Origin: Bacteroidales bacterium
Lineage (GTDB): Bacteria; Bacteroidota; Bacteroidia; Bacteroidales; Muribaculaceae
Direction of reading: 5' to 3'
Assembly (NCBI GenBank): GCA_030524805.1
Contig: JAUNFY010000024.1
Location: forward strand, 1-35,109
Length of the DNA stretch: 35,109 nucleotides
Numbering within the stretch: the stretch's first letter is position 1; every line of letters begins with the position of its first letter. Under the pieces are notes generated by a model, which saw nothing but the letters and a program-made list of their open reading frames with translations, was not told where the DNA came from and made no database searches. The position numbers and the translations under genes are program-made. Of the stretch, positions 20,299 to 23,251 are shown piece by piece.

Positions 20299-22134
20299 AT
20301 GAAGGATTTCATAAGGTTTCTCAAACGTTTTGCCCGCCCCTACGCCGGAACTCTGGCGCTGAGCATTTTCTTCAATCTGCTCAACGGCCTGATGACCGTA
20401 TTCTCGTTTGCGTTCATCATCCCCATCCTGCAGGTGATATTCGGGCTGGAAAGAGGGGAATATTCCTTCCGGCCCTGGACGTCGGGCGACCCGGTGGACA
20501 CAATTACCAACAACTTCTATTACTACACCGGGCACATCATCGACACCCAGGGAGCATCGAAAGCCCTGGCATGGCTCGGCTTCATATTCATCGTGATGAC
20601 CCTGCTGAAGGTGATGACCGGCTACTTCAGCGAATATTTCACCATCCCGATGCGCAACGGCGTGGTGCGCGACATACGCAACGCCATGTACAGCAAGATA
20701 CTGTCGCTTCCGATCGGCTACTTCAGCGGCGAACGGAAAGGCGACATAATGGCGCGCATGAGCGGCGACGTGACGGAAGTGGAGGCATCGGTGATGTCTT
20801 CGCTCCATGCCCTCTTCCGCTATCCGATACTGATCGTAATCTATCTGGCGACGATGATCGCCGTAAGCTGGCGGCTCACCATCTTCGTCTTCGTGCTTCT
20901 GCCCGTGATGGGATGGGTAATGGGAAAAGTAGGCAAGAAACTTAAGGCCCAGAGTCTGCGCACGATGCAGATAGGAGGCCAGATACTCGCCACCATCGAG
21001 GAAAGCCTCGGCGGCCTCCGCATCATAAAGGCATTCAATGCCGAGCGACAGATGGACACCCGGTTCCGCACGGAGACCCTGAGCTACGTGAAATCGGCCA
21101 ACGCCATGCTCCGGCGTCAGGCCCTCGCCCACCCGATGAGCGAATTTCTGGGCACCATCGCCGTGATAGTGGTACTCTGGTTCGGAGGCACGCTCATCCT
21201 GTCGGGTTCCTCGGCCATCGATGCCGCGTCGTTCATATTCTACATGACGATCTTCTACAGCATCATCAACCCCGCGAAAGACCTGTCGAAGACGGGCTAC
21301 ACCGTATCGAAAGGTATGGCCGCCCTCGCACGCATCGACAAGATTCTCGATGCTGAGAATCCCATAAAGAATCCGGAAAAGCCTAAGGAACTGCCCTCAG
21401 GCCAGGAGTCGCCCGCCATCGAATTCCGCGATGTAACGTTCAGCTACGACGGCGACCAGCGCGTGGTGCTCGACCACATCAACCTTGCCGTGCCAAGCGG
21501 AAAGACAGTGGCTATCGTAGGGCAGTCGGGAAGCGGCAAATCGACCCTGGTCGACCTCATCCCGCGCTTCTATGATGTCACCGGCGGACAGGTGCTCGTC
21601 AAAGGACGCGATGTTCGCGAGGTCAAGGTATGCGATCTGCGCGGCCTCATGGGCAACGTAAACCAGGAAGCGATACTCTTCAACGACACCTTCCGCAACA
21701 ACATCGCCTTCGGATGCGACAACGCAACGCAAGCCGACATAGAGAGAGCCGCGAAAATCGCCAACGCGCACGACTTCATCATGTCGACACCCGACGGCTA
21801 CGACACGATGCTCGGCGACCGGGGCTGCCGTCTCTCGGGCGGGGAGCGCCAGCGCATCAGCATCGCACGCTCCATACTGAAGAATCCGGATATCCTGATA
21901 CTCGACGAGGCCACCTCGGCCCTCGACAATGAAAGCGAAAGGCTCGTGCAGGAAGCCCTCGACAGGCTGATGCGCGACCGCACCACCATAGTGATCGCCC
22001 ACCGGCTCTCGACAATTGTCAACGCCGACTTCATCTGCGTGATGAGAGAGGGAAAGATAGTGGAAAAGGGAAGCCACGCCGAACTGATGGCACTCGGCGG
22101 AGACTATGCCCGCCTAAGGGCCCTCTCCTCCTGA
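20299..22134 (+). CDS. MsbA-like ABC exporter (fused membrane and ATPase domains)
   Basis: Half-transporter of 611 aa: about six membrane helices in residues 1-330, then the nucleotide-binding domain. The Walker A motif is GQSGSGKST (about 408-416), the signature is LSGGERQRI (about 511) and Walker B is ILILDEATSALD (about 532); the H-loop is IVIAHRLST. All ATPase motifs are intact. Relatives export lipid A core or other lipids. It lies 30 bases after mltD, where my recollection of Bacteroides genomes has relA, so the operon content differs. Confidence 0.92.
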   Translation: MKDFIRFLKRFARPYAGTLALSIFFNLLNGLMTVFSFAFIIPILQVIFGLERGEYSFRPWTSGDPVDTITNNFYYYTGHIIDTQGASKALAWLGFIFIVMTLLKVMTGYFSEYFTIPMRNGVVRDIRNAMYSKILSLPIGYFSGERKGDIMARMSGDVTEVEASVMSSLHALFRYPILIVIYLATMIAVSWRLTIFVFVLLPVMGWVMGKVGKKLKAQSLRTMQIGGQILATIEESLGGLRIIKAFNAERQMDTRFRTETLSYVKSANAMLRRQALAHPMSEFLGTIAVIVVLWFGGTLILSGSSAIDAASFIFYMTIFYSIINPAKDLSKTGYTVSKGMAALARIDKILDAENPIKNPEKPKELPSGQESPAIEFRDVTFSYDGDQRVVLDHINLAVPSGKTVAIVGQSGSGKSTLVDLIPRFYDVTGGQVLVKGRDVREVKVCDLRGLMGNVNQEAILFNDTFRNNIAFGCDNATQADIERAAKIANAHDFIMSTPDGYDTMLGDRGCRLSGGERQRISIARSILKNPDILILDEATSALDNESERLVQEALDRLMRDRTTIVIAHRLSTIVNADFICVMREGKIVEKGSHAELMALGGDYARLRALSS

Positions 22135-22207: not shown

Positions 22208-23251
22208 ATGGTCAATATAGCAGTCTTCGCTTCGGGAAACGGCTCGAATGCAATCAACTTAGTGGATAGATTCAATTCCGGCGACCACATCCGCGTGGCA
22301 CTTTGCCTCACCGACAGGGAAAATGCTGCGGTGATGGAGAAAATGGCGGAGAAGGGAGTGCCGGTGGAGTTCTACCCCCGCAGCATCTGGAAGGAAGAAC
22401 CGCAGACCATCCTCGACACCCTGAAGCTCCACAACATCAAGGTGGTGGTGCTCGCCGGTTTCCTCTGCTATGTGCATCCCGAAATAGTGAGAGCCTACGA
22501 AGGGCGTATGCTCAACGTCCATCCGTCGCTCCTGCCGGCCTACGGCGGGAAGGGAATGCACGGCTCGAAGATTCATGAGGCAGTGATCGCTGCCGGCGAA
22601 CTGAAGAGCGGAGCCACGGTGCATCTGGTGACCGAAGACATCGACGGAGGCCCGGTAGTGGTTCAGGAAGAAGTGTCCGTACTGCCCGACGACACCCCTG
22701 AGACCTTGGAAGCGAAAGTGCATCAGGTGGAATACAGGATTCTGCCTGAGGCCACCGAGAAGATTGTAGCCGGTCTGGAGCCGCCGGCCATCCCCAAGAG
22801 CGTGGACGACGCCTGGGCTGAAGCGTTAGGTGTGCCCAACAACGTTCCTCCCGTCCCGACGGGCAACAGCGCGGAACAGGAATCCGGCACACCTCAGCCG
22901 ACACCCAACGCGGGATACCAGCCGCACAACACAGGATATCAGCCGAACCATGGCGGATATCATGGCCAGAATGGCCAGAACCGTGCGGCCGATACCCTGA
23001 CGGCACCATCGGAGCCGATGCCTCCGACATATCTTGTCTGGTCGGTGGTATGCACCATTCTCTGCTGTTTCGTTCCCGGCATCGTTGCCATCATCCAATC
23101 GGCCAAAGTGAGCGGGAAATACTATGCCGGCGACATAGAGGGCGCAAAACGGGCATCGCGCAACGCTGAAATATGGATCATCATCTCATTCGTGCTCGGC
23201 GTCATCTCCAACACCCTCTACGTGCCCCTGACTCTCGCCGGATTGTTCTGA
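22208..23251 (+). CDS. purN: Phosphoribosylglycinamide formyltransferase fused to a CD225/dispanin membrane domain
   Basis: Residues 1 to about 190 form a complete PurN, the purine pathway enzyme that formylates GAR with 10-formyl-THF. The phosphate loop GNGSN is at 10-14, and the catalytic set Asn103, His105 (NVHPSLLP) and Asp146 (DIDGGP) is intact. A Pro/Gly/Gln/Asn/Tyr-rich linker (about 205-272) carries the repeats NAGYQP, NTGYQP and HGGYHG. Residues 273-347 match CD225/dispanin (IFITM-like) proteins: LVWSVVCTILCCFVPGIVAI, then a VSGKYYAGDIEGAKRAS loop and a second membrane segment. The frame is continuous with no sign of an error junction. The fusion would tether a cytosolic enzyme to the membrane. 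Usual PurN length is about 190-210 aa. Confidence 0.88.
   Translation: MVNIAVFASGNGSNAINLVDRFNSGDHIRVALCLTDRENAAVMEKMAEKGVPVEFYPRSIWKEEPQTILDTLKLHNIKVVVLAGFLCYVHPEIVRAYEGRMLNVHPSLLPAYGGKGMHGSKIHEAVIAAGELKSGATVHLVTEDIDGGPVVVQEEVSVLPDDTPETLEAKVHQVEYRILPEATEKIVAGLEPPAIPKSVDDAWAEALGVPNNVPPVPTGNSAEQESGTPQPTPNAGYQPHNTGYQPNHGGYHGQNGQNRAADTLTAPSEPMPPTYLVWSVVCTILCCFVPGIVAIIQSAKVSGKYYAGDIEGAKRASRNAEIWIIISFVLGVISNTLYVPLTLAGLF

Follow-up and report, generated by a model that had tools for sequence, protein, structure and literature searches.

GAR formyltransferase (PurN) catalyses the third step of purine synthesis, and PurT is a formate-dependent substitute for it. In human trifunctional GART, PurN is read in frame with further domains, which are soluble enzyme domains. 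The protein described here likewise carries PurN in frame with a second domain, but its partner is a membrane domain of the CD225, or dispanin, type, whose members include IFITM3 and PRRT2. To our knowledge no bacterial CD225 protein has an assigned function. A search of open-access titles and abstracts found no description of a PurN-CD225 fusion, and CD225 together with formyltransferase gave no match in the open-access literature, in agreement with the original prediction that the pairing is undescribed. CC, G-D and A-X6-A are named as dispanin motifs, and the dispanin loop is reported to lie inside the cell and in many cases to carry many K and R residues (PMC3282796). A GxxxG motif is reported to mediate oligomerisation of IFITM3 and PRRT2 (PMC7665892).

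The window, by which we mean the whole 35,109-nucleotide stretch of Muribaculaceae DNA that was analysed, belongs to a draft genome of 128 contigs (95% complete as listed) and contains the following features:

20299..22134, + strand: ABC exporter gene, 73 bases upstream of the fusion gene (Pfam ABC_membrane and ABC_tran)
22208..23251, + strand: whole fusion gene, PurN, W-A-x-x-L helix, linker and CD225 (open frame, 347 amino acids plus stop)
22208..22777, + strand: PurN (GAR formyltransferase) domain, residues 1-190 (Pfam PF00551, AlphaFold, Foldseek)
22802..22828, + strand: short helix, residues 199-207, with the W-A-x-x-L motif (W203, A204, L207; AlphaFold model)
22829..23017, + strand: low-complexity linker, residues 208-270 (mostly low pLDDT)
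23018..23218, + strand: CD225/dispanin membrane domain, residues 271-337 (Pfam PF04505)

A single ATG-to-stop frame of 347 codons plus stop spans exactly 22208-23251, and the only Pfam matches in its product are Formyl_trans_N (PF00551; residues 3-183, 137.8 bits against a cut-off of 26.1) and CD225 (PF04505; residues 271-337, 84.8 bits against a cut-off of 27.1). The original prediction of one in-frame PurN-linker-CD225 protein was thus borne out, as was its low-complexity GYQP-type linker between the two domains. An AlphaFold model, for which the window protein and named relatives were aligned in 36 rows, gave pLDDT values of 90-98 for the block of residues 1-190 and 87-95 for residues 271-347, with values below 50 at linker residues 221-259. 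The draft state of the window genome leaves room for the idea that the fusion is an artefact of assembly or sequencing. However, the same frame is found in another species (G012) at 68% protein identity, the same domain order recurs as a full fusion in 42 of the 111 genomes of the genus, and dN/dS is low in both domains. These 42 open, conserved fusions rule out an assembly or frame error, including the read-level indel that had been raised as a possible cause, and leave an artefact with a vanishingly small probability. The named relatives, catalogued as Muribaculaceae, Porphyromonadaceae, Bacteroides sp., Bacteroidales and similar names, are mostly metagenome assemblies; few of their titles mention a sample, and those that do suggest animal gut (of 189 confirmed loci, 80 were kept). 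A scan of the locus for promoters and terminators returned nothing usable, and a search of a plasmid collection returned only the purN stretches of two Paracoccus records. None of the PADLOC families matched the fusion protein at E <=0.01; the ABC neighbour matched six PADLOC models (best mad3, 120 bits), which we take as general ABC ATPase similarity.

The N-terminal part has the hallmarks of a complete PurN. The NCBIfam PurN model TIGR00639 has a cut-off of 150.1 bits; the protein scored 148.1 bits with hmmscan, and the genome search gave 149.8 bits, or 150.1 when adjoining sequence of the frame was counted in. Foldseek matched this part of the AlphaFold model to solved GAR transformylases (E 5.8e-18). 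Residues N103, H105 and D146, which we take to be the positions of E. coli N106, H108 and D144, are invariant in all 42 full fusions, as is N14 of the conserved G-S/T-N loop; the intact active site of the original prediction is therefore present. In fold, in catalytic residues and in its position on the tree, inside the cluster of PurNs native to the family, the domain resembles other PurNs, but among the matches listed the free PurN of other family genera ends at about 190-200 residues, whereas the window PurN continues into a membrane tail. PurD and PurH of the window genome lie together on another contig, so the purine pathway is not simply absent.

The tail is a two-segment CD225 domain, as had been predicted, with hydrophobic stretches centred at about 280-293 and 329-338 in addition to the Pfam match. 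The dispanin motifs can be read at C286-C287, G308-D309 and A313-A320, and the CC motif is present in 41 of 42 full fusions. Residues 299-322 form a basic loop with five K/R and three D/E, and within it G308-D-I-E-G312 forms a GxxxG motif, which we presume to occupy the same place as in IFITM3 and PRRT2. Its second glycine is kept in 42/42 full fusions, 34/35 broken-down forms and 16/16 forms lacking PurN (92/93 together), and its first glycine in 39/42, 34/35 and 5/16, respectively. The window protein therefore shares with IFITM3 and PRRT2 the Pfam match, the two hydrophobic stretches, the three dispanin motifs and the loop GxxxG, but differs from them in having an N-terminal enzyme and the W-A-x-x-L helix. 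This W-A-x-x-L motif was present in 92 of 93 proteins of the genus, the one exception being cut by a contig end. None of the solved structures among the best 60 of 67 matches covers the CD225 part. One full-fusion genome (G021) also has a second CD225 protein at a contig end, with GYGQPQQ-type repeats before the domain (L047:3-449).

To survey the genus, we searched 111 genomes with a profile of the part from W-A-x-x-L to CD225 (E <=1e-20) and found the CD225 gene in 93. Reading the frame in all 93 gave 42 full fusions, 35 proteins with a broken-down PurN (shortened, or with the active site lost) and 16 without PurN, which have a short start before the motif and are in some cases cut by contig ends; start sites and motifs were picked by regular expression, the classes were assigned partly by reading, and most of the genomes are drafts. 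Therefore, 51 of the 93 genomes keep the tail with a PurN part that is non-catalytic or gone. In the usual shortened form PurN stops near the strand of the catalytic Asn and a helix follows, and the broken-down forms can be arranged in a graded series that starts with G072, whose domain is mutated but of full length, passes through half-domains and finishes with the remnants in G063 and G113. The full-fusion PurN profile was the best match for 33 of the 35 broken-down N-domains, three of these at less than 10 bits. When modelled, a broken-down half-domain forms a compact half-fold, with pLDDT of 90-97 over residues 1-130. GAR transformylases are still found as structural matches to it, the best with E 6.1e-7 and an rmsd of 1.9 over 109 columns. 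In most broken-down forms the G-S/T-N loop is altered, as judged by reading. The genus thus offers a natural domain-swap test in which the same tail occurs with a live enzyme, with an inactive half-enzyme or on its own, so that its job can be separated from that of the enzyme.

The 18 genomes without a CD225 match are not all true absences. The ABC gene, sought in six of them, was present in three (E <=1e-150). One of these stretches (G127) begins with a broken-down PurN-like start followed by the W-A-x-x-L motif, beyond which the fetched sequence stops; in another (G036) the contig runs out after a PurN-like start, and the third (G070) holds an unrelated gene. An apparent triple ABC-PurN-CD225 frame of 829 amino acids in G080 was rejected as merely a long open stretch, since the ABC gene lies in another frame.

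Selection on the parts of the gene was compared by pairwise dN/dS in 25 hand-picked pairs (13 broken-down, 10 full and 2 without PurN), with saturated values omitted; several dS values exceed 2 and are rough. In full-fusion pairs dN/dS was 0.04-0.07 for the PurN part (7/10 finite) and 0.04-0.13 for CD225 (9/10 finite), and the linker, at 0.21-0.41 (7/10 finite), was the fastest-changing part. In broken-down pairs CD225 remained at 0.00-0.19 (9/13 finite), and the N-half was at 0.08-0.14 in seven of nine finite pairs, the other two giving 0.32 and 0.41, the latter with a dS of only 0.04. Indeed, the tail is the constant part of the gene and outlives the enzyme under strong selection. The constraint on the N-halves, together with their compact half-fold, argues against their being mere passengers, which should evolve faster.

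These data bear on several explanations of the fusion. The original prediction had suggested a membrane-bound purine assembly, in which the tail serves to hold PurN near other purine enzymes or a transporter. The retention of the full fusion in 42 genomes, with strong selection on both domains, would suit such an arrangement, but the 51 genomes that keep the tail beside a non-catalytic or missing PurN do not, and PurD and PurH are encoded on another contig, PurH being no fusion as judged by frame length. That the tail persists under strong selection after the enzyme has gone counts against a membrane purine factory and favours a membrane job of its own; we did not uphold the assembly as the reason for the fusion and consider it improbable. 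A second explanation would make two products of the gene, a soluble PurN and a CD225 peptide, by proteolysis of the linker or by an internal start at M271. The disordered, fast-changing linker fits this, as does M271 itself, which stands at the start of CD225 and is nearly invariant in the 36-row alignment. However, M-P is part of the general CD225 consensus, and the W-A-x-x-L motif lies upstream of M271 and is kept with the tail in all but the one truncated protein, from which it follows that the functional unit begins before M271. We regard two products as a slightly smaller chance still, although an internal 77-residue CD225 product starting at M271 may be made. M271 is an in-frame ATG at window positions 23018-23020, and GGAG stands a few bases before it.

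The PurN part might instead act as a metabolic sensor, whether active or not, reporting a ligand such as GAR, folate or another compound to the CD225 tail and perhaps also signalling to the ABC exporter, with the broken-down forms serving as a purely non-catalytic adaptor. The constraint on the half-domains and their modelled folding are what such a sensor would lead one to expect, yet 16 of the 93 genomes have the tail without any PurN part, and the G-S/T-N loop that is uniform in full fusions is altered in most broken-down forms. We know of no ligand for a PurN-CD225 sensor, and consider this explanation unlikely. Our preferred reading remains a working enzyme joined to a tail with its own membrane job.

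The distribution of other formyltransferases is informative here. A PurN profile search in the same 111 genomes, with counts taken from the matches listed, found a stand-alone PurN in none of the 42 full-fusion genomes, in 28 of the 35 with a broken-down form and in 11 of the 16 with the PurN-less form. The comparison of full fusions with the rest (0/42 versus 39/51) gives a Fisher p of 1.1e-15, with the proviso that the species are related and the samples not independent. PurT was present in 58 of the 111 genomes (56 over cut-off). Among the 27 genomes at least 90% complete that carry a non-catalytic form, a stand-alone PurN is present in 23 and PurT in the remaining four; the substitute is clear in 26 of them, and in the remaining one (G103, 90% complete, no PurT match) it is a divergent PurN relative at 118 bits, below cut-off and on a very long tree branch. 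Four further genomes with non-catalytic forms, 68-87% complete, have neither enzyme among the matches listed. The genus is also a clear case of an essential enzyme domain whose decay is almost confined to genomes with a substitute enzyme. Conversely, 19 of the 42 full-fusion genomes have neither PurT nor another PurN among the matches listed, 12 of them at least 90% complete. The window genome is one of the 19, so that its fused PurN is the only GAR formyltransferase found among the matches listed. Because no second PurN accompanies any of the 42 full fusions and spare enzymes occur elsewhere, the fused PurN is very probably active as a GAR formyltransferase, as far as sequences can tell.

The neighbouring ABC exporter gene, an old partner of purN in this family, bears on the history of the locus. 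It lies directly upstream of the CD225 gene at 72 of the 90 loci in the genus with enough flank (36 full, 23 broken-down and 13 PurN-less), and in other genera a free purN directly follows the same ABC exporter gene at 9 of 20 loci, most of which were high-ranking family matches. On a tree of 119 PurN rows, a single starred cluster holds all 42 full fusions, two free PurNs from other genera and the mutated form of full length. Two changes on this tree are required for the full fusions, and the two free PurNs may therefore sit among them. The stand-alone PurNs with strong scores (L224-L257; 34 genomes, of which 27 have a broken-down form) reach 193-228 bits to TIGR00639. A long branch of 1.43 changes per column separates them from the rest, the family's native PurN included, which would fit an origin in some other family. 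Of the 13 weaker-scoring ones, 12 group with four PurNs of other genera.

On the ABC tree (85 rows, rooted with ABC genes of other genera) the earliest branches are full fusions, and the other forms arise within. In constraint tests on 82 rows, with three long or gappy rows omitted, the full fusions as one clade were rejected (p-AU 1.3e-43), all other forms as one clade were not (p-AU 0.166), and the tree requires four changes between full and other forms. The likely order is therefore an ABC-purN pair, then one fusion, then gain of another PurN or of PurT, and then decay or loss of the fused PurN, although transfer of the whole locus between species could blur this order. The reverse history, with a CD225 gene as the ancestral ABC partner and purN added later, was rejected, since other genera have the ABC gene followed by a free purN at those nine loci, with the CD225 genes read there lying elsewhere, and since full fusions branch first. 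As side observations, the full-fusion gene lies away from the ABC gene at four loci (L009, L013, L201 and L202, in G028, G018, G098 and G087), where the gene after the fusion resembles RelA/SpoT by eye. At four broken-down loci (L208, L192, L194 and L197) the next gene, again by eye, encodes a short membrane protein with a GCGSQR motif, which we presume to be DUF2752-like.

The source of the tail was sought among CD225 proteins of other Muribaculaceae genera. All 20 that were selected carry GYF_2 and CD225, none of the 20 genes adjoins this ABC gene within the stretches fetched, and W-A-x-x-L has a match in only one, inside the CD225 region. These proteins share the CD225 domain with the window protein but differ from it in their GYF_2 domain, which the window protein lacks, and in lacking the ABC neighbour and a comparable W-A-x-x-L motif. 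For these reasons the tail was probably borrowed from a protein of the GYF_2-CD225 type, with W-A-x-x-L gained anew.

Taken together, we propose that a CD225 module with a W-A-x-x-L helix was joined once to the purN end of an ABC exporter-purN pair, no later than the base of this Muribaculaceae genus. In the window species the PurN part would be the working GAR formyltransferase of the cell, held as a head on a flexible linker at the cytosolic face of the inner membrane. With IFITM topology as the model and PurN on the cytosolic side, the second hydrophobic stretch would span the membrane, whereas the first would dip into it. The tail would do a membrane job of its own for which the enzyme is not needed, most likely oligomerising through the GxxxG loop and docking a partner through the W-A-x-x-L helix. 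The charge of the loop, the GxxxG motif and its conservation are the grounds for proposing such an oligomeric module with docking helix and PurN head, and by analogy the tail is probably an IFITM-like oligomer in the membrane. We judge the combination of a single fusion origin, a working tethered PurN and a tail with an independent membrane job to be moderately probable. A further and more speculative suggestion concerns the broken-down forms. After gain of a spare PurN, the fused enzyme may have become a pseudoenzyme, its catalytic half cut out and the half-fold retained as a non-catalytic sensing or docking head on the oligomeric CD225 module, which would regulate the envelope, perhaps via the adjacent ABC exporter. 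We offer this tentatively, as rather doubtful; if true, a housekeeping enzyme would have given rise to a membrane regulator of a new kind. The W-A-x-x-L motif supplies a defined bait for finding the partner of the tail.

Outside the genus, where the genomes searched were samples, full-length fusion matches among 397 genomes of the family, a set that included the window's own genus, came from that genus only, among the matches listed. In 395 genomes of the phylum only the window's own genome passed 1e-72, which makes this a weak test, because fusions built on a more divergent PurN would not reach that threshold. A long PurN frame in another genus (G392) proved to be an upstream stretch of open frame. 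The family does contain a different fusion, however: in another genus, L337:1407-2627 (G290) encodes a PurN-GNAT protein with Formyl_trans_N at residues 37-218 and Acetyltransf_3 at 231-372. It resembles the window protein in having PurN in frame with a second domain but, as in GART, the partner is a soluble enzyme domain, and L338 (G252) resembles this PurN-GNAT fusion by reading.
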